From Sulfitobacter geojensis (lineage in GTDB: Bacteria; Pseudomonadota; Alphaproteobacteria; Rhodobacterales; Rhodobacteraceae): a stretch of 64,000 nt of DNA. The notes beneath the pieces are model-generated. The model saw nothing but the letters and a program-made list of their open reading frames with translations. It searched no databases and had not been told where the DNA came from. Of the stretch, positions 47,846 through 60,105 are shown in pieces (within the stretch, counting starts at the first letter, position 1; each line of letters opens with the position of its first letter). Location of the stretch: contig NZ_JASE01000005.1 of the NCBI RefSeq assembly GCF_000622325.1, positions 806,001 to 870,000 on the forward strand, written 5' to 3'. The position numbers and the translations under genes were made by a program.

Positions 47846-48127
47846 TTTATCCCGTAGATACCCCCATCGAACCGTCAACCGCCCCTTGGGGTGACTGTTT
47901 GGCATAACCGGCTATGCCTTGTTCTGAACGGGGCGAAATTCCTTCGGATTTCTGGGATAAAGACGCTTGATGGTTACATATTTTTGCCGCCTTTATAAAC
48001 TTCCGATGCGCGGCTGATCTACTTGGCGTTGATTGACGGCGGGGGGCAACTGTTGTCTGGTTGCTTTGGAATAACGAATCTGATCACCCGATCACACGGG
48101 TGGCACACCGAAAAATGGGAGAAGACT
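47846..48127 (+). promoter_or_regulatory. Region between the tRNA and the TRAP genes, with two hairpins
   Basis: No gene is seen in these 282 bases. GGCATA/TATGCC (47901-47918) may end the tRNA transcript. CACCCG/CGGGTG (48085-48102) is a perfect dyad with a 6-nt loop, 26 bases before the dctP start, and could be a regulator site or leader hairpin. TTTATCCC just after the tRNA and GGGATAAA near 47960 form a longer-range inverted pair. No TGCA-N6-TGCA motif is present here. Confidence 0.35.
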
Positions 48128-49162
48128 ATGATTTTACGCAGAACATTGATGGGGATTGCCGGCGCGGCAGTCGCTGCGACCCTGATGACCACGACTGCTA
48201 TGGCGCAAGAAGTAACGTTGCGCATGCACCAGTTCCTGCCACCGCAGGCCAATGTGCCTAAGCTTGTGCTGGATGTCTGGGCGGACAAGGTTGAAGCCGC
48301 CAGCGAAGGTCGGATCAAGATCGAGCGTTACCCTTCCATGCAACTTGGCGGTAAGCCACCAGAGCTGATGGATCAGGCAATCGACGGCGTGGCAGATATC
48401 GTCTGGACAGTTGTCGGCTATACGCCGGGTCGCTATCCAAGCACCGAAGTTTTCGAGCTGCCGTTCATCATGACCAATGCGCGTGCCGCATCCTCTGCTT
48501 ATTGGCAGATGTTTGAAAAGCACATGAAAGACGATGAATTCAAAGACGTGCACATTCTGGGCACATGGGTTCACGGCCCCGGCATGATTCATGTTAACAA
48601 AGAGGTGAAAACACCCTCCGATATGGAGGGGCTGAAAATCCGTGGGGGGTCGCGTCTGGCGAACCAGCTGCTGGAAAAAGTCGGCTCAACACCTGTCGGC
48701 ATGCCCGTTCCTGCGGTGCCTGAAGGTCTGTCCAAAGGCGTGATCGACGGCACAACCATTCCATGGGAAGTAACGGCCGCGTTGAAAGTGCCAGAGCTGG
48801 TGTCGAACCATACAGAGTTCGAAGGCAACGCGCTTTATGTGCTGACCTTTGTTCTGGCGATGAACAAGGCGCGCTACGAAGGTCTGCCGGCTGATCTGCA
48901 AAAGGTGATCGACGACAATTCCGGTCTGGAATTCTCGATCTTTGCTGGTGGTACCCAGTCCGACAGCGACGGCCCTGCACGTCAACTTGCCGTGGATCGT
49001 GGCAACAACATCGTAACCGTCAGCGGTGACGACGTTCAGGCATGGCGCGACGCGGCGCAGCCGATCTATGACGAATGGGTCGCGGATATGAACAGCAAAG
49101 GCATCGACGGTCAGGCGCTGATCGACGAAGCAAAAGCCTTGATGGAAGCTTACGACAAGTAA
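48128..49162 (+). CDS. TRAP transporter substrate-binding protein (DctP type)
   Basis: A 344-residue periplasmic binding protein. A Sec signal peptide (RRTLMGIAGAAVAATLMTTT, cleavage near AMA-QE) precedes the mature DctP fold with LRMHQFLPPQANVPK, the conserved arginine region GLKIRGGSR, and VPEGLSKGVIDGTTIPWE. The ATG at 48128 follows GGGAGAAG. Next to an aromatic-CoA ligase and box genes, it probably binds benzoate or a related aromatic acid; the sequence alone does not prove this. Confidence 0.93.
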   Translation: MILRRTLMGIAGAAVAATLMTTTAMAQEVTLRMHQFLPPQANVPKLVLDVWADKVEAASEGRIKIERYPSMQLGGKPPELMDQAIDGVADIVWTVVGYTPGRYPSTEVFELPFIMTNARAASSAYWQMFEKHMKDDEFKDVHILGTWVHGPGMIHVNKEVKTPSDMEGLKIRGGSRLANQLLEKVGSTPVGMPVPAVPEGLSKGVIDGTTIPWEVTAALKVPELVSNHTEFEGNALYVLTFVLAMNKARYEGLPADLQKVIDDNSGLEFSIFAGGTQSDSDGPARQLAVDRGNNIVTVSGDDVQAWRDAAQPIYDEWVADMNSKGIDGQALIDEAKALMEAYDK

Positions 49163-49234
49163 GCGTTAATCCTGCCTATCGACCTGCGGCGGCTTCGGGC
49201 TGGCGCAGGTCTTTCTATGATAAGTGAGTACCCC

Positions 49235-49816
49235 ATGCACCGCGCTGTCCAGTCTCTTGCCCGTCTGACCGCTTTGGCCGGAGGGATTGTTCTGATTGTG
49301 CTGATTGTATTGACCACGCTGTCAATCCTGGGTCGGTCTTTGAACAAGTTCTTTCACAACGATTTTTTCGACACGTCGCTCACTGGCTTTTCCCAGTGGA
49401 TGCTGAACACAGGCATCGGCGAAATCAACGGCAGCTACGAAGTGCTGGAGGCGGGGGTCGCATTTGCTATTTTCTCTTTCTTGCCAGTCTGCCAGTTCTA
49501 CGGGGCCCATGCGACGGTTGATGTGTTTACCTCCATGCTGTCGGGCAGGGTGAACCGTTGGATCGCGGCCTTTTGGGAGGTGGTGCTGAGCGCCACAATC
49601 ATTTTGATCGTTTGGCGTTTGTACGAGGGCATGTTGCGCTATCTGGGCAATGGCGAAACCACGTTGTTTTTGCAGTTTCCGGTCTGGTGGGCTTATGCGG
49701 CAAGCACCGCTGCGGGGCTCGTTGCCTGTGTCGTCGGGGTCTATTGCGCGTTTGTGCGACTGGCCGAGGCGCTGGGCGATCGCAACATCCTGCCTTCCGA
49801 ACATGGGGAGCACTGA
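49235..49816 (+). CDS. TRAP transporter small permease (DctQ type)
   Basis: A 193-residue inner-membrane protein with four helices: GIVLIVLIVLTTLSILGRSL begins the first, and VAFAIFSFLPVCQFYGAHAT is typical of DctQ. I chose the ATG at 49235, six bases after GTGAG; an ATG at 49217 would add six residues. The gene lies 72 bases after dctP and one base before dctM. Confidence 0.9.
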   Translation: MHRAVQSLARLTALAGGIVLIVLIVLTTLSILGRSLNKFFHNDFFDTSLTGFSQWMLNTGIGEINGSYEVLEAGVAFAIFSFLPVCQFYGAHATVDVFTSMLSGRVNRWIAAFWEVVLSATIILIVWRLYEGMLRYLGNGETTLFLQFPVWWAYAASTAAGLVACVVGVYCAFVRLAEALGDRNILPSEHGEH

Positions 49817-49817
49817 G

Positions 49818-51137
49818 ATGAGCAACCTCGAACTGGGCTTTTATTCCTTTCCTGTCCTGCTGATCATGGTGTTTTTGCGCGCGCCTATCGGCCTTGCCAT
49901 GTTGCTTTGCGGTTTTGGCGGCTGGTATTTCGCCATGGGCGGCAACCCCACGCCATTGCTGGCAAAAATGAAATCGGAAACCTACACGACCTTCTCAAGC
50001 TATTCTCTGAGCATCATTCCGATGTTCCTGTTGATGGGGCAATTCGCGACCCTGTCAGGCATGTCCCAAGCGCTGTTCAAAGCGGCCGAGGGTTTTTTGG
50101 GCCACCGGCGTGGCGGGGTTGCGATGGCGGCGGTGGGGGCCTGTGCAGGCTTTGGCGCGATTTGCGGATCGTCATTGGCCACGGCGGCGACCATGTCCAA
50201 GGTCGCCCTGCCCGAACTGAAACGCTACGGCTATTCGGGCGGTTTTTCAACGGCGACACTGGCCGCCGGCGGGACGCTTGGCATCTTGATACCGCCCTCG
50301 GTGATCCTTGTGATCTATGCCATCCTGACCGAACAAAACATCGCCAAGCTGTTCCTCGCGGCATTTGTGCCCGGTATTCTGGCGGCACTTGGATATATTC
50401 TGACGATCTCGCTCTATGTGCGTTTGCATCCTGATGCGGCGGGCACCCGTGCGCCCATTCCGATGGCCGAACGGTTTCGTGCGCTGGCCGATTGCTGGCC
50501 GGTTCTGACGATCTTTATCGTCGTTGTCGGCGGCATTTATGCGGGTTGGTTCACCCCCACCGAAGGATCTGCCATCGGCGCGGCGGGCACCGGACTGGCG
50601 GCGCTTATGGCGGGCAGCCTGAACTGGAAAGTTCTGGGCGAAAGCTTGCTCGGCACCGCGCGCACCACCGGTATGATCTTTTTCATCGTGCTGGGGGCCG
50701 CGTTCTATAACGGCTTCCTTGCCTTGTCGGGCGTGCCACAGTTCATGGCCGGTTGGGTGGTAGAACAGGGGTTTTCGCCGTTGCTGGTCCTCTGCGTGAT
50801 CCTTGTTTTCTATGTGATTTTTGGCTGCCTTATGGACAGCTTGTCGATGATCCTGCTGACCGTGCCGATCTTCTTTCCCGTTATCATGGCGATGGATTTT
50901 GGCATGTCGGCGGAACATGTGGCGATCTGGTTCGGCATCCTTGTCCTGATCGTGGTTGAGGTCGGGTTGATTACGCCGCCCGTGGGTATGAACCTGTTCA
51001 TCATCAACTCGATGGATCGTGAAACACCGATGACCCAAACCTATCGCGCCGTGATGTACTTTGTCGGGTCCGACCTGGTGCGCGTTGTGATCCTTGTGGC
51101 CTTTCCAGCGATCACCTTGTTTCTGCTGCCGGATTAA
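49818..51137 (+). CDS. TRAP transporter large permease (DctM type)
   Basis: A 439-residue permease with about twelve helices that couples uptake to the sodium gradient. The family segments APIGLAMLLCGFGGW, SIIPMFLLMGQFATLSGMSQ, GAICGSSLATAATMSKVALP and LITPPVGMNLFIINSM are present. The ATG at 49818 has GGGGAG upstream. Together with dctP and dctQ it forms one complete TRAP system, placed immediately before the CoA ligase. Confidence 0.93.
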   Translation: MSNLELGFYSFPVLLIMVFLRAPIGLAMLLCGFGGWYFAMGGNPTPLLAKMKSETYTTFSSYSLSIIPMFLLMGQFATLSGMSQALFKAAEGFLGHRRGGVAMAAVGACAGFGAICGSSLATAATMSKVALPELKRYGYSGGFSTATLAAGGTLGILIPPSVILVIYAILTEQNIAKLFLAAFVPGILAALGYILTISLYVRLHPDAAGTRAPIPMAERFRALADCWPVLTIFIVVVGGIYAGWFTPTEGSAIGAAGTGLAALMAGSLNWKVLGESLLGTARTTGMIFFIVLGAAFYNGFLALSGVPQFMAGWVVEQGFSPLLVLCVILVFYVIFGCLMDSLSMILLTVPIFFPVIMAMDFGMSAEHVAIWFGILVLIVVEVGLITPPVGMNLFIINSMDRETPMTQTYRAVMYFVGSDLVRVVILVAFPAITLFLLPD

Positions 51138-51144
51138 GCCGCAC

Positions 51145-51209
51145 TGCATTAAAATGCATTCGCGCAGCAGGGATGTTGCCTCTGCCCCGTCTAGCTGCAC
51201 AATGTTGCA
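51145..51209 (+). promoter_or_regulatory. Promoter of the CoA ligase with two TGCA-N6-TGCA candidate BoxR operators
   Basis: TGCATTAAAATGCA (51145-51158) and TGCACAATGTTGCA (51196-51209) both fit TGCA-N6-TGCA, the direct-repeat operator reported for BzdR/BoxR-type benzoyl-CoA-responsive repressors. A possible promoter TTGCCT (51176-51181), 16 bases, CACAAT (51198-51203) places the second motif over the -10 box, a repressing position. The gene for a BoxR homologue lies at 59.2 kb. Motifs are seen directly; the regulator-site link is inferred. Confidence 0.65.
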
Positions 51210-51225
51210 AAAAGGGGAGGGTCCA

Positions 51226-52764
51226 ATGCTATCCAGTCACGCCAATGCGGCGCATCATTTTGTTGATCGCCACATGACCGAAGGGCGCGGGGCCAAGACG
51301 GCCTATATCGAGGCCGAAACCGGTCGCACATTGAGTTATGCGCAGATGGCGCAAGGCGCGGGGCAGGTGGCGGGGGCATTGTCCACCGCGGGCATCCGCC
51401 CCGAAGAACGCGCCGCGGTTCTGGTGCTGGACCAAATCGAATTCCCGCAGATCTTTTGGGGCGCGCTGAAATGTGGCGTCGTGCCGGTGCCGTTGAACAC
51501 CCTGCTGGCCACTCCTGTGTATGACGTGATCCTGCGGGACAGTCGCGCCGCGATCCTTTTTGTCTCTGCCCCGCTTTGGGATGTTGTTGCCCCCGCAGTT
51601 GCCGACAACCCCTATATCCGGCAGGTGGTTTTCATCGGGGACACGCCTGAGGGGATGGCATCCTTCGACACGTTTATCAAAGGCGCGCCTGTCCTTGAAA
51701 CGATGGCCGTTAGCAGGGACGAGGTCGCATTTTGGCTCTATTCCTCTGGCTCGACAGGGCAGCCCAAGGGTGTTGTGCACATCCATTCGGCCCTACAGGC
51801 CACGGCGGACACATATGGCGCGCGGGTGCTGGGCATTCGCGAAGACGATGTGGTGCTTTCCGCCGCCAAGTTTTTCTTTGCCTATGGGCTGGGTAATGAA
51901 ATGACATTTCCGTTGTCGGTCGGTGCCACCAGCGTCCTGTTCACCGGCAGACCGACGCCGGTCGGCATGATCGACACGATTAATGCGCACCAACCCACGA
52001 TCTTTTGCGGTGTGCCGACGCTTTTTGCCGCGATGGTCGCGCAGATGGATCAAAGCGGCGCACCGCAATCTCCGCTGCGCATCTGCATCTCTGCCGGTGA
52101 AGCCCTGCCCGAAGATGTAAGCAAGCGCTGGGAGACCCATACCGGCGTCGGGATCCTTGACGGTGTCGGTTCGACCGAGATGTTGCATATCTTTCTAAGC
52201 AACCGCGCGGATGACATCGTGCATGGCACGTCTGGCGTGGCGGTTCCGGGGTATGAGCTGCGCCTGGTGGATGAACAGGGTGAAGAGGTCGCTGCGGGCG
52301 AGGTAGGTGAATTGCTGGTCAACGGTGCCTCGGCGGCGAATTGTTATTGGAACCAGCGCGACAAAAGCCGCAGCACGTTTGAGGGGGTCTGGACCCGCAC
52401 CGGCGACAAATACGAACGCCGAGAGGACGGGCGGCTGGTATATTGTGGCCGCACCGACGACATGTTCAAGGTTTCAGGCATCTGGTTGTCGCCGTTCGAG
52501 GTTGAAAGCGCCCTGGTTGATCATCCCCGCGTGCTGGAAGCGGCCGTCGTTGCGCAGCGCGATGCGGACGGATTGGAAAAACCCAAAGCGTATATCGTTG
52601 TTCAAACGGGCGAGGTGGATCAAACGTTGATGGAGGAACTGAAGGTCCATGTGAAAGAAAAAATCGGGCTGTGGAAATACCCCCGTTGGATCGAAGGCGT
52701 TGCGGAGCTGCCCAAAACCGCGACGGGTAAAATCCAGCGATTTAAACTGCGGGAGGAACAGTGA
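51226..52764 (+). CDS. Benzoate-CoA ligase family (aromatic acid-CoA ligase)
   Basis: A 512-residue AMP-forming ligase that converts benzoate plus CoA and ATP to benzoyl-CoA. The phosphate loop is YSSGSTGQPKGVVHIH, followed by FFFAYGLGN, the acid-binding region GVPTLFAAM, GVGSTEMLHIFLSN (benzoate ligases have this in place of the usual YGxTE), TGDKYER and the catalytic lysine region PKTATGKIQRFKLR. The ATG at 51226 follows GGGGAGG. It stands at the head of the genes that feed the box pathway. 4-Hydroxybenzoate or another analogue as preferred substrate is not excluded. Confidence 0.93.
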   Translation: MLSSHANAAHHFVDRHMTEGRGAKTAYIEAETGRTLSYAQMAQGAGQVAGALSTAGIRPEERAAVLVLDQIEFPQIFWGALKCGVVPVPLNTLLATPVYDVILRDSRAAILFVSAPLWDVVAPAVADNPYIRQVVFIGDTPEGMASFDTFIKGAPVLETMAVSRDEVAFWLYSSGSTGQPKGVVHIHSALQATADTYGARVLGIREDDVVLSAAKFFFAYGLGNEMTFPLSVGATSVLFTGRPTPVGMIDTINAHQPTIFCGVPTLFAAMVAQMDQSGAPQSPLRICISAGEALPEDVSKRWETHTGVGILDGVGSTEMLHIFLSNRADDIVHGTSGVAVPGYELRLVDEQGEEVAAGEVGELLVNGASAANCYWNQRDKSRSTFEGVWTRTGDKYERREDGRLVYCGRTDDMFKVSGIWLSPFEVESALVDHPRVLEAAVVAQRDADGLEKPKAYIVVQTGEVDQTLMEELKVHVKEKIGLWKYPRWIEGVAELPKTATGKIQRFKLREEQ

Positions 52765-53588
52765 TGGCGATCACATGGTCGGACGCCCCACAAGATCGGG
52801 TGCAGGTGAACGGCACGGCGCTGGAGTATGCCTGTTGGGGACCATCACCAGATCAGGCCCCGACACTGGTGTTGCTTCACGAAGGGTTGGGGTCAGTCGC
52901 GCAATGGAAAGACGTGCCGCAAGCCTTAGCCGATGCCACAGGTTTTGGCGTTTTTGCCTATTCGCGGGCGGGCTACGGTGCATCCGATCCGGTGAGCCTG
53001 CCGCGTCCGCTTGATTACATGACCCGCGAGGCCGAGGATAATTTGGGCGCAGTCATGGACGCTGCGGGGATCAAACAGGCGGTGCTGCTGGGCCATTCGG
53101 ACGGGGCGACGATTGCTACGCTTTATGCCGGTTCGGTGTCTGACATGCGCGTGCGCGGGTTGATTTTGATCGCGCCGCATTTCTTTACCGAAGCCGACAG
53201 TTTGGCGGCGATCCGCGCGGCAGGCAAGGCTTACGTCGACGGGGATTTGCGGAGCAAGCTGGCGAATTATCACGCCAACGTCGATGTGGCCTTTCACGGC
53301 TGGCACGACGCGTGGACCGATCCGGCCTTTGCCAAATGGAACGTCGCAGATGCGATTGATCATCTGCGCATTCCGGTGCTGGCCATTCAGGGGCGCGACG
53401 ATCCTTATGGCACATTGGCGCAGATCGATGAGATCGAAACGCGGATTTATTCACCGGTTGAAACGCTGATCCTAGACGGCTGTGGCCATGCTCCGCATCT
53501 GGAACAAGCTGATGCGACACTGGCAGAAATCAGTGAATTTTGCGCCCGTTTGTGGCGGTTGGAACAGCAAGAAGTTGCGTTTGCCTGA
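52764..53588 (+). CDS. Alpha/beta hydrolase in the box cluster
   Basis: A 274-residue cytoplasmic hydrolase. The nucleophile elbow is G110-H-S112-D-G114, the oxyanion region is LHEGLGSVAQW, and the acid/histidine pair lies around GRDDPYG and GCGHAPHLE. The start overlaps the ligase stop by one base after GGGAGG. Alpha/beta hydrolases recur in aerobic benzoyl-CoA clusters; a role as a thioesterase or ring-product lactonase is plausible but unproven. Confidence 0.88.
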   Translation: MAITWSDAPQDRVQVNGTALEYACWGPSPDQAPTLVLLHEGLGSVAQWKDVPQALADATGFGVFAYSRAGYGASDPVSLPRPLDYMTREAEDNLGAVMDAAGIKQAVLLGHSDGATIATLYAGSVSDMRVRGLILIAPHFFTEADSLAAIRAAGKAYVDGDLRSKLANYHANVDVAFHGWHDAWTDPAFAKWNVADAIDHLRIPVLAIQGRDDPYGTLAQIDEIETRIYSPVETLILDGCGHAPHLEQADATLAEISEFCARLWRLEQQEVAFA

Positions 53589-54030
53589 CCGGTCAGACGC
53601 CATTCCGGTGCCGCCCTATGCCTATGTGCCCGGGCAAAACATGCGCCACCCGGAAGATTGGTTCGATGCCATTAAAGATACTGTGCTGGAAGGCATGCCC
53701 GCGGCTGATTTGCAGCATACGGCGGCATTTCGTGCAGGGCTGATCTATCTCGACGCGGGATATTACTGGGAATGCCATGAGGTGCTTGAAGCCGTCTGGT
53801 TGCAGACGCCGAAGGGCACCGCCGAGCGCGACATGGTACAAGCGCTGATCCAGTTGGCAAATGCACGCCTGAAGGTGCGGATGCGACGCCCCCGCGCCGC
53901 ACAGCGGCTTTGCAACATGGTCGAGGGGCACTTGCAGGAATATGCGATTGATCAGCCGATTCTGGGTGTCTTGCCGGATAGTGTAATGGTCCATGTCGCG
54001 CAGGTGCGGTGCAATCTGGACGGTAGATAG
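53581..54030 (+). CDS. DUF309 domain protein
   Basis: A 149-residue, mostly helical protein. The DUF309 signature FRAGLIYLDAGYYWECHEVL is clear, followed by ERDMVQALIQLANARLKVRM. No ATG suits the start: the conserved region begins before the ATG at 53641, so I use the TTG at 53581, inside the end of the hydrolase gene (TTG at 53575 is the alternative). The overlap suggests coupled translation. Function unknown. Confidence 0.75.
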   Translation: MPDRSDAIPVPPYAYVPGQNMRHPEDWFDAIKDTVLEGMPAADLQHTAAFRAGLIYLDAGYYWECHEVLEAVWLQTPKGTAERDMVQALIQLANARLKVRMRRPRAAQRLCNMVEGHLQEYAIDQPILGVLPDSVMVHVAQVRCNLDGR

Positions 54031-54140
54031 TAGCACTATAGTGCAGCTAAATTTCTAAATCGGCCAAAGTATCCGGCTTGGTCTTAATTCTGCATGAATT
54101 ATAGTACGTAATAATCCGTTTGCGATCTTTAGGAGCTTTC
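54031..54140 (+). promoter_or_regulatory. boxC promoter region
   Basis: This AT-rich gap holds the perfect 12-bp palindrome GCACTATAGTGC (54033-54044) and a possible promoter TTGGTC (54078-54083), 16 bases, TATAGT (54100-54105). A TGCA half-site (54091-54094) sits within the spacer; a complete TGCA-N6-TGCA is absent. A TTAGGAGC ribosome-binding site precedes boxC. A second transcription start for the box genes is likely here. Confidence 0.5.
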
Positions 54141-55799
54141 ATGACCAAGGTTATCGATTTTCAAACCGACCCATCGAAATACCGCCACTGGAAGGTCGAA
54201 TACGATGGCCCGATTGCGTGGCTTTCGATGGATGTCGATGAAAAGGGCGGGTTGTTTGACGGGTATGAGCTGAAGCTTAACAGTTACGACCTTGGTGTTG
54301 ATATTGAGCTGGCCGATGTGGTGCAGCGAATGCGGTTCGAACACCCTGAAGTGAAGGTCGTGGTCATGCGCTCGGCCAAGGATAAGGTCTTTTGCGCTGG
54401 TGCGAATATTCGCATGCTGGGTGGCGCTGCTCATAGCCACAAGGTCAACTTTTGTAAGTTCACGAACGAGACGCGCAACACCTACGAAGCGGCGTTGGCA
54501 GACAGCGGACAGAACTATATCTGCGCGATCAAGGGGGCCTGTGCAGGTGGCGGATACGAACTGGCACTGGCGTGCAACCACCTGATGCTGACGGATGATT
54601 CGACGTCATCTGTCGCGCTGCCGGAAGTGCCGCTGCTTGCCGTTTTGCCCGGCACCGGGGGGCTGACCCGCGTCACGGATAAACGCAAAGTGCGCCGCGA
54701 TCTGGCAGATGTATTCTGCTCCATCGAAGAGGGCGTGAAGGGCAAGCGCGCGCGGGACTGGAGATTGGTCGATGAAGTCTTCCCGAATTCTTCGTTTGAC
54801 GAGAAAGTTGCGGAGCGGGCGCAGGAACTGGCGGCAAGCTCTGCCAAGGCTGATGTTGAGAAAGGCATCGAACTGACGCCTATCAGCCGCAGTTTTTCCG
54901 AGAATGGCGTGAACTACTCCACGGTAGAAGTCGCATTCCACCGTAAGGAAATGCGCGCAACCATCACGATCAAAGGGCCGGGCGCGGCTGCCCCCGCAGA
55001 CATGAATGCTTTTACGGCAGAAGGTGACGCAAGCTGGATGCTGCGCTGTGCGCGAGAACTGGACGATGCGATCCTGGACCTGCGCAACAACGAAAAAGAG
55101 ATGGGGCTGATCGAATTCCAGACGCAAGGTGATCCTGAATTACTGGTCGCGCATGAGGCACTGTTGCTTGCCAACAAAGACCACTGGCTGGCCAATGAAG
55201 TGCTGCAATACTGGAAGCGCCTGCTGAAACGCATTGATATGACCTCGCGCTCGCTGGTTGCGATTGTTGAGCACGGCTCATGCTTTGCCGGACCACTGGC
55301 CGAACTGCTTTGGGCGGTCGACCGCAGCTACATGATGCTTGAGGAGTTTGACGGCGATAATCGTCATCTGGCGACCGTGACGATGACCGACGGCAACTTC
55401 GGCACCTATCCCATGAGCAATGACCTCACCCGTCTGGAAACCCGTTTCCTAGGCACGCCAGAGCAGGTGGAAAAGCTGAAATCCTCCATCGGTGAGCCGC
55501 TCGAAGCCGATGCCGCTGACGAGATGGGTCTGGTCACTTACGCCTACGATGACATCGATTGGGAAGATGAGGTGCGTCTGTTCATGGAGGAACGCGCAAG
55601 CTTTAGCCCTGATGCGATGACCGGGATGGAAGCCAACCTGCGCTTTGCCGGACCAGAAACGATGGAGACCCGCATTTTTGGGCGCCTGACCGCATGGCAA
55701 AACTGGATTTTCCAGCGTCCCAACGCGGTTGGCGAAGAAGGTGCGCTGCAACGCTACGGCACAGGCGTACGCGGCAAGTACAACATGGAACGTGTATAA
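54141..55799 (+). CDS. boxC: 2,3-Dihydro-2,3-epoxybenzoyl-CoA hydrolase / ring-opening lyase BoxC
   Basis: A 552-residue homodimeric enzyme that opens the epoxidised ring of benzoyl-CoA to a semialdehyde-CoA plus formate. It contains two crotonase-like halves: the first has VFCAGANIRMLGG and the glycine-rich CoA-binding KGACAGGGYELALAC, the second has SLVAIVEHGSCFAGPLAELL. Length and the conserved YRHWKVEYDGPIAWL N-terminus match BoxC. The ATG at 54141 follows TTAGGAG. A 23-bp hairpin separates it from boxB. Confidence 0.95.
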   Translation: MTKVIDFQTDPSKYRHWKVEYDGPIAWLSMDVDEKGGLFDGYELKLNSYDLGVDIELADVVQRMRFEHPEVKVVVMRSAKDKVFCAGANIRMLGGAAHSHKVNFCKFTNETRNTYEAALADSGQNYICAIKGACAGGGYELALACNHLMLTDDSTSSVALPEVPLLAVLPGTGGLTRVTDKRKVRRDLADVFCSIEEGVKGKRARDWRLVDEVFPNSSFDEKVAERAQELAASSAKADVEKGIELTPISRSFSENGVNYSTVEVAFHRKEMRATITIKGPGAAAPADMNAFTAEGDASWMLRCARELDDAILDLRNNEKEMGLIEFQTQGDPELLVAHEALLLANKDHWLANEVLQYWKRLLKRIDMTSRSLVAIVEHGSCFAGPLAELLWAVDRSYMMLEEFDGDNRHLATVTMTDGNFGTYPMSNDLTRLETRFLGTPEQVEKLKSSIGEPLEADAADEMGLVTYAYDDIDWEDEVRLFMEERASFSPDAMTGMEANLRFAGPETMETRIFGRLTAWQNWIFQRPNAVGEEGALQRYGTGVRGKYNMERV

Positions 55800-55806
55800 A
55801 ACGTGG

Positions 55807-55860
55807 TGGCGGGGTGAACCCCGCCCTACGGCATGAGGTAGGGCGGGGTTCACCCCGCCA
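55807..55860. repeat. Long perfect inverted repeat between boxC and boxB
   Basis: The arms 55808-55829 and 55838-55859 (GGCGGGGTGAACCCCGCCCT plus two bases) are exact reverse complements over 22 bp, with one further T-A pair and an 8-nt loop. There is no T-tract, and it starts eight bases after the boxC stop and ends before the boxB ribosome-binding site. It could stabilise the boxC transcript, attenuate boxBA, or be a REP-like element. Confidence 0.85.
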
Positions 55861-55877
55861 TGACAAGGAGAACACGA

Positions 55878-57329
55878 ATGCTTGATCTGATCAACGTAAG
55901 CTACGACACGCAAATCCCGAATAACGTGGGCTTGTCCGAAGACAAGAAGGTGTTGAAAGCGCTGGAAAAATGGCACCCCGGTTACATCAACTGGTGGAAT
56001 GACCTGATCCCGCAGAACTTTCAGGAATCCATGGTCTATCTGCGCACCGCTGTCAGCGTAGATCCCAAAGGCTGGGCGAAATTCGATTATGTGAAAATGC
56101 CCGAATACCGTTGGGGTGTTCTGCTGGCCCCTGCTGTCGAAGACCGCAAAATTCCGATGGGCGAACACTTGGGCGAACCTGCGTGGCAGGAAGTGCCGGG
56201 CGAATACCGCAACATGCTCAAGCGTTTGATCGTTATTCAGGGCGACACAGAGCCAGGGTCGGTCGAGCAGCAGCGGTTCCTTGGCCTCACCGCGCCGTCA
56301 CTCTACGACATGCGTAACCTGTTTCAGGTAAACGTCGAAGAAGGTCGCCACCTTTGGGCGATGGTTTATCTGCTGCAAAAATACTTTGGCCGCGATGGCC
56401 GTGAAGAAGCGAACGACCTGCTGGTCCGCTCCTCAGGCGACGAAGATGCGCCGCGCATGTTGGGTGCCTTTAATGAGGAAACGCCGGATTGGCTGTCGTT
56501 CTTCATGTTCACCTATTTCACCGACCGCGATGGAAAGATGCAGCTGGAAAGCCTGGCACAATCCGGCTTTGACCCGCTGTCGCGCACATGCCGTTTCATG
56601 CTGACCGAAGAAGCGCACCACATGTTTGTGGGCGAAACCGGTGTGGGCCGCACCATTCAGGCCACGCTTGAGGCAATGAACAAGCACGGCATCACAGACC
56701 CCTACGACATTAACAAGATCCGTGATCTTGGTGTCATCGACCTGCCGACGATCCAGAAAAAGCTGAACCTGCACTACACGCTGTCGCTTGATCTGTTCGG
56801 GCAGGAAGTATCGACCAATGCTGCCAATGCTTTCAACTACGGAATCAAGGGCCGCTATATGGAGCAGCGGATTGACGACGATCATCAGCTTAAGGATGAC
56901 ACCTATGCCGTCACCTCGATCAAGGATGGTAAGATCCTGACCGAAGATGTACCGGCGCTGACGGCGATTAACATGCGTCTGCGCGATGACTATGTGCGCG
57001 ATGCGGCTGGTGGTGTGGGCCGCTGGAACAAGCAGATCGCCAAGTCCGGTATCGAATTCCAACTGAAACTGCCGCACGAAGGGTTCCACCGCCAGATCGG
57101 TGTGTTTTCAACCGTGGCGGTGAACCCCGATGGTGATGTGATTTCGGCGGATGAATGGCACCAGCAGCGCGACAACTGGCTGCCGACCAAAGCAGACGGC
57201 GATTACATCCAGTCGTTGATGGTACCGTGCTACGAACCGGGCAAATATGCCTCGTGGATTGCAGCGCCCAAGGTGGGCATCGACAATAAGCCGGGCGATT
57301 ATGAGTATGTGAAATTGCATATGGCGTAA
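55878..57329 (+). CDS. boxB: Benzoyl-CoA 2,3-epoxidase, oxygenase component BoxB
   Basis: A 483-residue diiron oxygenase that epoxidises benzoyl-CoA using O2 and electrons from BoxA. By spacing against the known enzyme the diiron ligands are Q121 and E125 (QGDTE), E155 and H158 (EEGRH), D216, E245 and H248 (TEEAHHMF), all preserved. The ATG at 55878 follows AAGGAGAA. Length is normal for BoxB. Confidence 0.96.
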   Translation: MLDLINVSYDTQIPNNVGLSEDKKVLKALEKWHPGYINWWNDLIPQNFQESMVYLRTAVSVDPKGWAKFDYVKMPEYRWGVLLAPAVEDRKIPMGEHLGEPAWQEVPGEYRNMLKRLIVIQGDTEPGSVEQQRFLGLTAPSLYDMRNLFQVNVEEGRHLWAMVYLLQKYFGRDGREEANDLLVRSSGDEDAPRMLGAFNEETPDWLSFFMFTYFTDRDGKMQLESLAQSGFDPLSRTCRFMLTEEAHHMFVGETGVGRTIQATLEAMNKHGITDPYDINKIRDLGVIDLPTIQKKLNLHYTLSLDLFGQEVSTNAANAFNYGIKGRYMEQRIDDDHQLKDDTYAVTSIKDGKILTEDVPALTAINMRLRDDYVRDAAGGVGRWNKQIAKSGIEFQLKLPHEGFHRQIGVFSTVAVNPDGDVISADEWHQQRDNWLPTKADGDYIQSLMVPCYEPGKYASWIAAPKVGIDNKPGDYEYVKLHMA

Positions 57330-57397
57330 CGATATTGCCCTATCCGTGAAAGCGGGTGGGGCCACGCTTTTCCTGCCCTTAGAGACGGAGATCAGAC

Positions 57398-57568
57398 ATG
57401 CAAGCAGAACGCACAATTGGACACGCCCCCCGCACGCAGGCTCTGGCCCGTGATCTGGAAAACCTGCAGGGCCCGTGTGTCGGTTGCCCCGGGTGTCAGG
57501 GTATCTGTCAGGCGTTGTTTGATGCAATGATGGTACCGGACCTTATCCTGAAAGACCGCCACGCATGA
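57398..57568 (+). CDS. Small four-cysteine protein between boxB and boxA (56 residues)
   Basis: An ATG at 57398 with GGAG about eight bases upstream opens 56 codons that end in TGA overlapping the boxA ATG (ATGA). C27, C30, C33 and C37 form C-x2-C-x2-C-x3-C (GPCVGCPGCQGICQ), the spacing of a [4Fe-4S] ferredoxin site, but followed by Gln rather than Pro, and with only one such set. The N-terminal half is helical and basic. I do not recognise a named family. Its place inside boxB-boxA suggests a role in electron transfer to BoxB or in cluster assembly. Confidence 0.75.
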   Translation: MQAERTIGHAPRTQALARDLENLQGPCVGCPGCQGICQALFDAMMVPDLILKDRHA

Positions 57569-58734
57569 ACAAACCTGTCAAACAGCATCTGATTGATCCC
57601 GAGATTTGCATCCGGTGTTACACCTGTGAAATGACCTGCCCCATTGGCGCGATTGAACATGATGACAACAATGTCGTGGTGAACGCTGATATCTGCAATT
57701 TCTGTATGGACTGCATTCCGGTCTGCCCGACCGGTTCCATCGACGAATGGCGCGTAGTGGCAGAGCCTTATACGCTGGAGCAGCAATACGAGATGGAAGA
57801 GCTGCCCGAGCAGGAAGACATCGAGGTTGCGCCCGAAAACGACGTGGCAGACCCGATCGCCGCCTTGCTGGACGAAGCGCATAAAGGCGCGGGGGGCAAA
57901 GCACGTGCGCCTGCCTCAGCCGGTAAACCTGCGATCAACATGTATAATCTGGGCAAGCCTGCGCGCATGAAGGTGCAGGGCAACTATCGCCTGACGGATG
58001 ATCCTGATCACGACGTGCGCCACATTATTCTTGACCCCGGTGCGCTGCCGTTTCCGGTGCTCGAAGGGCAATCCGTCGGGATCATCCCGCCCGGCACTGA
58101 TGCCGATGGCAATGCCCATCTGCCGCGGCTCTATTCCATCTCAAGCCCGCGAGATGGCGAGCGCCCCGGATATCACAACATTTCGCTGACGGTGAAACGG
58201 GAAGAACACGGGCTTGCCTCGAACTTTCTGTGTGATCTGGAAATCGGGGCGAGCGTCGACGTTACCGGCCCGTTTGGCGCGACCTTCCTGCTGCCCTCGA
58301 TCCCTGACGCGCATCTTTTGTTGATCTGTACCGGCACCGGATCGGCGCCTATGCGGGCCTTTACCATGCAACGCCAGCGTAGTGGCGCGACGGGTGGCAT
58401 GACCATGTTCTTTGGCGCACGCACGCCTGAAAGCCTGCCCTATTTCGGGCCGCTCAAGAAGATTCCCGACAGCTTGCTGAAGAAAAATCTAGTCTTCAGC
58501 CGGATGCCGGATCAGGACAAGGAATATGTGCAAGACCGCATGATCGCCGAACAGGACAGCATCGCGGAGATCCTGCAAGACGGGAAAACCCATATCTACA
58601 TCTGCGGTTTGCGCGGGATGGAAGAGGGGGTGGAGCTTGCTCTGACCTCGATCGCGGAAAGCATGGGGCAGCAATGGACCGCCCTGCGCGACGCCATGCG
58701 TGAAGACGGCCGTTACCATGTGGAGACCTATTGA
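57565..58734 (+). CDS. boxA: Benzoyl-CoA 2,3-epoxidase, reductase component BoxA
   Basis: A 389-residue iron-sulfur flavoprotein that passes NADPH electrons to BoxB. The N-terminal 2[4Fe-4S] ferredoxin domain has C15, C18, C21, C25 and C44, C47, C50, C54. After an acidic linker (residues about 75-125) comes a ferredoxin-NADP reductase domain with the FAD motif PRLYSISSPR and the NADP region LICTGTGSAPMRAF. Its start overlaps the small four-cysteine gene by four bases. Confidence 0.96.
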   Translation: MNKPVKQHLIDPEICIRCYTCEMTCPIGAIEHDDNNVVVNADICNFCMDCIPVCPTGSIDEWRVVAEPYTLEQQYEMEELPEQEDIEVAPENDVADPIAALLDEAHKGAGGKARAPASAGKPAINMYNLGKPARMKVQGNYRLTDDPDHDVRHIILDPGALPFPVLEGQSVGIIPPGTDADGNAHLPRLYSISSPRDGERPGYHNISLTVKREEHGLASNFLCDLEIGASVDVTGPFGATFLLPSIPDAHLLLICTGTGSAPMRAFTMQRQRSGATGGMTMFFGARTPESLPYFGPLKKIPDSLLKKNLVFSRMPDQDKEYVQDRMIAEQDSIAEILQDGKTHIYICGLRGMEEGVELALTSIAESMGQQWTALRDAMREDGRYHVETY

Positions 58735-59190: not shown

Positions 59191-60105
59191 ATGAGCCAGC
59201 CGGTTGGCAAAGTGGTGCAAACGCCAGCGCCCGAGCCGTTGGACGCAGGAGCGAAACTGATCCAGACATTGGCAGGAAAGGTTGCGACCCTGCGCAAGCA
59301 GCGCGGGTTGTCACGGCGTGTGCTGTCCGAAATGTCGGGGGTATCACCGCGCTATCTGGCGCAGCTTGAAGCGGGCGAAGGCAATATTTCGGTGCTCTTG
59401 CTGCAACGTGTGGCAAGCGCGCTCGATGTACGCATCGAGGCGCTGCTGACTGAACAGACCCCACTCGATCATGACGTCTTGCGGGTCGCGGCCCTATATC
59501 ATCAGGCACCCGAAGAGGTTCAGCAACAGGTGTGCAGCATGTTGGCCCCGCAAAACCCGCGCCTTCTGCGGGCGGGCCGCATTTGTTTGATCGGGTTGCG
59601 CGGGGCGGGCAAATCTACGCTCGGCGCACGGGCTGGGGAGGCGCTGGGCATCCCGTTTGTCGAATTGAACCGCGAGATCGAAGAGGCGGCAGATATGCCA
59701 TTGGCCGAGGTGATGGCGTTTTATGGTGAGGTCGGATACCGCAAGCTGGAGGCCGAGGCGCTGGAGCGGGTCAGTGCACGCCATGACCGGATGGTTTTGG
59801 CCGTCGCAGGCGGGATCGTCACAGAAGAGGACACCTTTGCCCATCTGCTGGAGCGGTTCCACACCGTCTGGATCAGGACCAGCCCTGCCGAGCATATGCA
59901 ACGTGTGCGCGGGCAGGGCGATCATCGCCCGATGCAGGGTAACCCTGCCGCGATGGCGCATCTCAAGGATCTGTTGCAGGCGCGCACGCCCCTTTATGCC
60001 CGCGCTGACGCACAGGTCGATACGGCCAACCGGACAGTGGGGTCGTCGCTGAACACTTTGTTGGCGGCGGTCGCAAAACACCAGTTTCTAGAAACCGGTC
60101 GATGA
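59191..60105 (+). CDS. boxR: BoxR/BzdR-type benzoyl-CoA-responsive transcriptional regulator
   Basis: A 304-residue repressor made of an XRE-type helix-turn-helix (about residues 27-88; QRGLSRRVLSEMSGVSPRYL) joined to a shikimate-kinase-like domain with a P-loop at residues 135-143 (GLRGAGKST). In BzdR and BoxR the kinase-like domain binds benzoyl-CoA and relieves repression. Candidate operators are at 51145-51209. It is in the same direction and 33 bases after the thioesterase gene, so it is probably autoregulated through the operon. Confidence 0.93.
   Translation: MSQPVGKVVQTPAPEPLDAGAKLIQTLAGKVATLRKQRGLSRRVLSEMSGVSPRYLAQLEAGEGNISVLLLQRVASALDVRIEALLTEQTPLDHDVLRVAALYHQAPEEVQQQVCSMLAPQNPRLLRAGRICLIGLRGAGKSTLGARAGEALGIPFVELNREIEEAADMPLAEVMAFYGEVGYRKLEAEALERVSARHDRMVLAVAGGIVTEEDTFAHLLERFHTVWIRTSPAEHMQRVRGQGDHRPMQGNPAAMAHLKDLLQARTPLYARADAQVDTANRTVGSSLNTLLAAVAKHQFLETGR

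Follow-up and report, generated by a model that had tools for sequence, protein, structure and literature searches.

The window, a 64,000-nucleotide stretch of the Sulfitobacter geojensis genome, contains a box locus for benzoate in which a short frame occupies the junction between the epoxidase gene boxB and the reductase gene boxA (Table 1). The initial annotation had described this frame as a 56-codon gene with its own ribosome-binding site, a start 68 bases after the boxB stop (57329) and an ATGA overlap with boxA, and reading the window sequence bears out each of these features. The 56-residue product of positions 57398-57568, MQAERTIGHAPRTQALARDLENLQGPCVGCPGCQGICQALFDAMMVPDLILKDRHA, has a single set of four cysteines, C27-x2-C30-x2-C33-x3-C37, followed by Q38 instead of proline, also as annotated, and the gene is single-copy in its own genome. 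BoxA has the two-cluster ferredoxin domain ascribed to it, with Fer4 matches in two stretches in addition to its TIGR03224 match. The box cluster also includes a DUF309 gene, relatives of which (L105, L205) separate the small gene from the TRAP genes in a genome without boxB (G324) and lie just 5' of boxB in a further genome (G278). Separately, the boxC-boxB gap holds a perfect 23-bp inverted repeat, the arm of which has 28 matches in the genome at two or fewer mismatches, its own two arms included; this is a dispersed REP-like element.

Table 1. Features of the box locus, in window coordinates.
Feature	Coordinates	Strand	Details
TRAP transporter DctP-DctQ-DctM	48023..51137	+	upstream of box genes; Pfam DctP, DctQ, DctM
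Benzoate-CoA ligase family gene	51094..52764	+	TIGR02262, 4.2e-218
DUF309 gene	53482..54030		within box cluster
boxC	54120..55799	+	TIGR03222, 6.4e-284
Inverted repeat, boxC-boxB gap	55807..55860		perfect, 23 bp
boxB, di-iron benzoyl-CoA epoxidase	55878..57329	+	TIGR03225, 1.6e-272
GGAG ribosome-binding site	57387..57390	+	7 bases 5' of ATG
Four-cysteine small-protein gene	57398..57568	+	56 codons; ATG 57398, stop TGA 57566-57568
Codons of C-x2-C-x2-C-x-G-x-C motif (residues 27-37)	57476..57508	+	four Cys and Gly invariant in 73/73 members
ATGA overlap, small-gene stop/boxA start	57565..57568	+	boxA ATG at 57565
boxA, two-cluster ferredoxin/NADPH reductase	57565..58734	+	NCBIfam TIGR03224, 3.4e-149; Fer4 and NAD_binding_1
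boxR-type regulator	59191..60105	+	NF006015, 8.1e-107

We built a profile from seven sequences and searched it against 394 Rhodobacteraceae genomes, a set with close to one genome for each genus. The small gene was found in 65 of these and boxB scored above the cut-off in 82; 57 genomes have both genes, 8 the small gene only, 25 boxB only and 304 neither (Fisher p 7e-40 for co-occurrence, a statistic that ignores the relatedness of the genomes). The small gene lies directly 3' of boxB in all 57 co-carriers, one copy being split between frames. The junctions themselves could be read directly in 80 of the 82 boxB genomes, leaving out one in which boxB is cut (G402) and one at a contig end (G160). 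The frame and its cysteines recur at other boxB-boxA junctions, contrary to the refuting outcome that the initial annotation had named: a four-cysteine small ORF stands at 61 of the 80, with the strict C-x2-C-x2-C-x3-C spacing at 58 and the variant C-x3-C-x2-C-x3-C at 3 more. The strict ORF is followed by boxA at 54 junctions, while 4 strict and all 3 variant ORFs have no adjacent boxA; the rest comprise 17 junctions with boxA and no such ORF and 2 with neither. Two of the strict ORFs (G076, G100) had been missed by the profile search, and that of G076 preserves the cysteine spacing and little else. Where both genes are present, the exact 4-base overlap between small-gene stop and boxA start is found at 39 of the 54 junctions, and at 10 the stop falls more than 60 bases before boxA. 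Junction gaps span 192-601 bases with the small gene and -4 to 238 without it.

Searches beyond the family gave little. A class-level search of 385 genomes returned one match besides the window's own (G722), which we judged to be chance, since it covers 15 residues inside a 45-residue frame. An order-level draw gave matches in 38 of 195 genomes, all labelled as the same family, the family make-up of the draw not being given; one of its genomes (G850) has a weak match inside a long frame. Other families contributed 22 boxB loci from 20 genomes, read with up to 1.5 kb of sequence on either side. No small ORF with the four-cysteine motif, strict or variant, was seen at these loci, and the motifs present there lie in frames of at least 400 residues, either BoxA or (L191) another Fe-S protein. 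Another alphaproteobacterial family (f171) has six boxB loci (L169-L173, L175) with no boxA-type motif seen within 1.5 kb, and the one f171 genome searched (G784) has no boxA over the cut-off. A plasmid collection queried with three family members yielded no annotated record with a relative, and a literature search at the level of titles and abstract openings found no earlier description of the small protein.

The 118 hit rows were reduced to 73 distinct members by dropping duplicates from overlapping loci together with four rows belonging to two copies split between frames (L101/G201, L135/G068); these split copies may reflect decay or sequencing error. Cys27, Cys30, Cys33, Gly35, Cys37 and Pro47 are invariant in all 73, and the N-terminal half is variable. 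Lengths are 47-60 residues in 68 members and 64-75 in the other 5, some of which have uncertain starts or ends. The cysteine motif lies in the sense frame of every member and is absent from the other five frames, and a Shine-Dalgarno-like 4-mer precedes 68 of the 72 members that start with ATG, compared with 711 of 3650 random positions (19%).

Close relatives of the window point to selection on the protein. The gene was matched in 7 of 60 relatives' genomes and the frame is conserved at 7 of 21 boxB junctions of the genus, the window's own included in both counts; the other six Sulfitobacter proteins are 55-95% identical to that of the window, and 17 positions, all four cysteines among them, are invariant. 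For the codon-conservation check that the initial annotation had proposed, 21 Sulfitobacter pairs were compared: 15 have a finite dS and dN/dS ratios of 0.06-0.28, the other 6 being saturated; dS is below 1 in only three pairs, for which the ratios are 0.09, 0.13 and 0.18. Substitutions between the window and L003 number 6/4/20 by codon position. On these comparisons, the small gene is under purifying selection among close relatives. Across the family, 1079 pairs with pS < 0.62 were compared and ratios of about 1 or higher occur in many of the 25 listed; we judged these values uninterpretable, probably through saturation and biased codon use, and the conclusion on selection therefore uses the seven Sulfitobacter sequences alone. 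A chance open frame within the intergenic gap would agree with the 19 of 80 boxB junctions that have no such ORF and with antisense frame 0, which is without stops in 57 of the 73 members; because that frame is open so often, openness by itself means little. The frame, its residues and its ribosome-binding site are conserved, and this, together with the selection, the Shine-Dalgarno-like sites and the restriction of the motif to the sense frame, rules a chance frame out, and we give it negligible probability. Judged by this conservation, the frame is a true gene for a protein that belongs to a fast-evolving small-protein family of Rhodobacteraceae benzoate (box) loci.

The initial annotation had suggested an electron-transfer or assembly partner of the BoxAB epoxidase. 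The association with boxB, seen in 57 of the 65 carriers and at a fixed position, supports a part of this. In two genomes (G138, G271) boxA is on another contig, in G138 behind a boxC-like frame, and the small gene is still behind boxB; in a third (G448) boxB is followed by the small gene and then a boxR-type gene, with no boxA over the cut-off. The small gene thus keeps its place behind boxB even where boxA lies elsewhere or was not found, so boxB, rather than boxA, is the gene that it follows. Six genomes (G114, G197, G298, G360, G436 and G808; loci L193, L200, L201, L149, L185 and L184) have a flavodoxin gene of about 152 residues (products 56-78% identical to that of G360, which matches PF00258) 3' of boxB in boxA's place, and none of the six has boxA over the cut-off. 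The variant four-cysteine ORF lies between boxB and the flavodoxin gene in G197, G298 and G360; no four-cysteine ORF was found at the boxB-flavodoxin loci of G114, G436 and G808. With a flavodoxin gene standing in place of the missing boxA in some boxB clusters, BoxB may be supplied with electrons in more ways than the two-component picture allows.

Eight of the 65 carriers have neither boxB nor boxA over the cut-off, the copy of one (G201) being split between frames, so BoxB is not the sole partner and the small protein is not a subunit exclusive to BoxB. Nine loci without boxB were read, one from each of these genomes and a second copy in G441, and four of them (L100, L102, L105, L108) have the small gene downstream of TRAP transporter genes that are orthologues of the window's (DctP and DctM 70-82% identical, DctP alone 76-82%); three of the eight boxB-less genomes are thus represented. 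The small gene follows the transporter directly in G164 and G251, with DUF309 between them in G324 and with SDR and AMP-ligase genes between them in G441, where this second copy (L108, contig C48) is then followed by boxR- and HCDH-type genes and neither boxA nor boxB lies in the stretch that was read. An obligate BoxAB subunit is likewise rejected, since 17 of the 71 boxB-boxA junctions in the family draw are without the small gene (one of them, in G068, has a split copy) and the eight carriers are without boxB. What stands of the partner claim is the tie to boxB and the fixed position; the gene is dispensable and does not follow boxA.

Dispensability is clearest within the genus, where 14 of 21 boxB loci have boxA and boxB in place and no small gene. 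Thirteen of these have boxB-boxA gaps of 53-118 bases; the remaining one (L016), from a single genome (G002), has a SnoaL-type ORF in the gap. Mapped onto a 98-row BoxB tree, presence and absence of the small gene take 14 changes, at least 8 of them forced by well-supported branches, compared with 27.1 when labels are shuffled on the same tree. This distribution fits an old gene that would have been lost repeatedly, and gene transfer may have contributed.

Comparison with known families supports a ferredoxin half-site, as the initial annotation had called it, at the level of the motif and no further. The window protein matched no Pfam family at E up to 1, and its NCBIfam matches, two radical-SAM activase models (E 0.04 and 0.09), are not significant. 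The 73 members weakly match 21 Pfam families, 12 of them Fer4 models and 9 not Fe-S models; Fer4_2 leads with 22 of 73 members, and the best Pfam E value, for members other than the window's, is a weak 5e-4. Among the NCBIfam matches listed, other members weakly match L-lactate dehydrogenase LdhH (29/73, best 4e-4) and ferredoxin-type models. In a PDB profile search PsaC was best, its E of 1.5e-4 coming from two weak stretches and a single motif giving about 0.2; the 60 of 88 PDB matches listed are all [4Fe-4S] proteins by name. AlphaFold2 run on nine sequences yielded no usable fold, its low-confidence model (mean pLDDT 54, pTM 0.24) coming with predicted helices at 13-21 and 36-44 and no strands. 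As far as these profiles reach, similarity to ferredoxins is limited to the cysteine motif, and beyond the motif the protein resembles no known family. A standard bacterial 2[4Fe-4S] ferredoxin (Fer4) is rejected: each aligned member has one motif and not two, proline follows Cys4 in just 2 of 73, and the window protein has no Fer4 match.

Our best explanation, to which we give a probability of roughly 40%, is a small, half-ferredoxin-like [4Fe-4S] redox accessory acting mainly on the BoxB side, with both metal binding and function proposed from sequence. Each C-x2-C-x2-C-x-G-x-C motif would bind one [4Fe-4S] cluster, and the small protein would work alone or as a homodimer resembling a split two-cluster ferredoxin. 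Its synthesis would be tied to that of BoxA by the ATGA overlap, and it could provide an extra electron relay to the di-iron oxygenase BoxB, useful in some conditions and not required. The reductase at the other end of this relay would be BoxA or, in some genera, the flavodoxin encoded in boxA's place. We count for this reading the invariant four cysteines, glycine and proline, the Fer4-led Pfam matches and the [4Fe-4S] proteins among the PDB matches, the co-occurrence with boxB, the position, the ATGA overlap, the loci where the small gene keeps to boxB with boxA elsewhere or not found, the variant ORF beside the flavodoxin gene in G197, G298 and G360, and the purifying selection. Against it we count the boxB-less carriers, the same-genus absences, the flavodoxin loci of G114 and G436 with no ORF, a likeness to ferredoxins confined to the motif, the rarity of proline after Cys4, the two clusters that BoxA already has, the low pLDDT and strandless helices of the predicted structure, and the 9 of 21 Pfam families that are not Fe-S. 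A more specific version, in which the family is a natural half-ferredoxin working in air that dimerises and relays electrons to BoxB from BoxA or flavodoxin, appears doubtful.

The nearest rival to the redox accessory is a metal-centre helper which, by analogy with PaaD, would protect the di-iron BoxB or BoxA with its two [4Fe-4S] clusters, or supply either with iron or a cluster. BoxB is a structural homologue of PaaA, and PaaD is needed in vivo and not in vitro, according to the accessible part of PMC4498308; dispensability would fit the absence of the gene from many lineages, and a helper could serve other enzymes in boxB-less genomes. However, no DUF59 or assembly-protein match is among the families listed and the boxB-less contexts offer no obvious client, so we consider a helper unlikely. 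The four boxB-less loci with the orthologous TRAP genes, among them the second G441 copy with its boxR- and HCDH-type neighbours, would suit instead a redox or iron sensor modulating the TRAP transporter for benzoate, or BoxR, and not the epoxidase. This is hardly probable, as the other five of the nine loci have no TRAP orthologue, the boxB-boxA position is fixed in 54 loci and no regulatory or membrane family was matched.

Four conserved cysteines by themselves cannot separate zinc from iron, and one member each weakly matches the Pfam models Anti-TRAP and c-SKI Smad4-binding, both of which bind zinc. A zinc or structural protein with no redox role nevertheless has only a slim chance: the usual zinc ribbons have two CxxC knuckles, whereas the x2-x2-x3 spacing with hydrophobic-Gly after Cys1 is the ferredoxin signature, and Fer4 models match more members than the other models do. 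The overlap at 39 of 54 junctions raises the further idea of a leader frame, in which translation and not the product would matter, by making boxA translation depend on upstream ribosomes or on the supply of cysteine. It is very unlikely, because selection acts on amino acids, the gene is kept where boxA does not follow (G448, G138, G271) and in boxB-less loci, its stop is distant from boxA in the 10 loci noted above, and the cysteines are not contiguous.

The preferred redox accessory can be set against several known systems. Its motif spacing, its C-[IVL]-G-C start and its best PDB profile matches are those of 2[4Fe-4S] ferredoxins (Fer4; PsaC), from which it differs in having one motif and no second half. 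The ferredoxin domain of BoxA is encoded by the adjoining gene and has the same cysteine spacing, but homology is undetectable (2.5% probability over 15 columns in a profile comparison), and in five genomes the small protein shares 55-82% identity with that of the window, against 95-97% for this domain. PaaD, described in the accessible part of PMC4498308 as a DUF59, SufT-like protein of about 170 residues from the phenylacetyl-CoA epoxidase (PaaABCE) operon, is likewise a small accessory protein encoded in one operon with a di-iron epoxidase related to BoxB. Membership of the PaaD/DUF59 family is rejected, as DUF59 is absent from the Pfam and NCBIfam matches of the window protein and, for the 73 members, from the 21 Pfam families and the 25 of 41 NCBIfam families listed.

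Sulfitobacter is aerobic, and the small protein is a conserved addition, of no known family, to the well-studied aerobic benzoate pathway. For Sulfitobacter D7, the accessible part of PMC9873259 deals with the Ben pathway and is not drawn on here. The closest parallel is semidoxin (protodoxin-1), a half-ferredoxin of about 30 residues; natural half-ferredoxins are rare and so far come from thermophilic anaerobes only, as the accessible part of PMC12648291 has it. Like semidoxin as described there, the small protein is very short (below about 60 residues) with one [4Fe-4S]-type four-cysteine motif, and could hold one cluster as a monomer or two as a homodimer. Unlike semidoxin in that account, it is longer in 68 of 73 members (47-60 residues), almost always has no proline after Cys4 (present in 2 of 73), has a helix and not a strand before the motif in the low-confidence AlphaFold2 prediction, and is encoded beside an oxygen-using enzyme. 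With it, one could test cheaply whether half-ferredoxins of a single motif occur and work beyond thermophilic anaerobes. Should the small protein be a half-ferredoxin that works in air, it would be a living, oxygen-exposed case of the proposed 'stage 2' of ferredoxin evolution, with a physiological partner.
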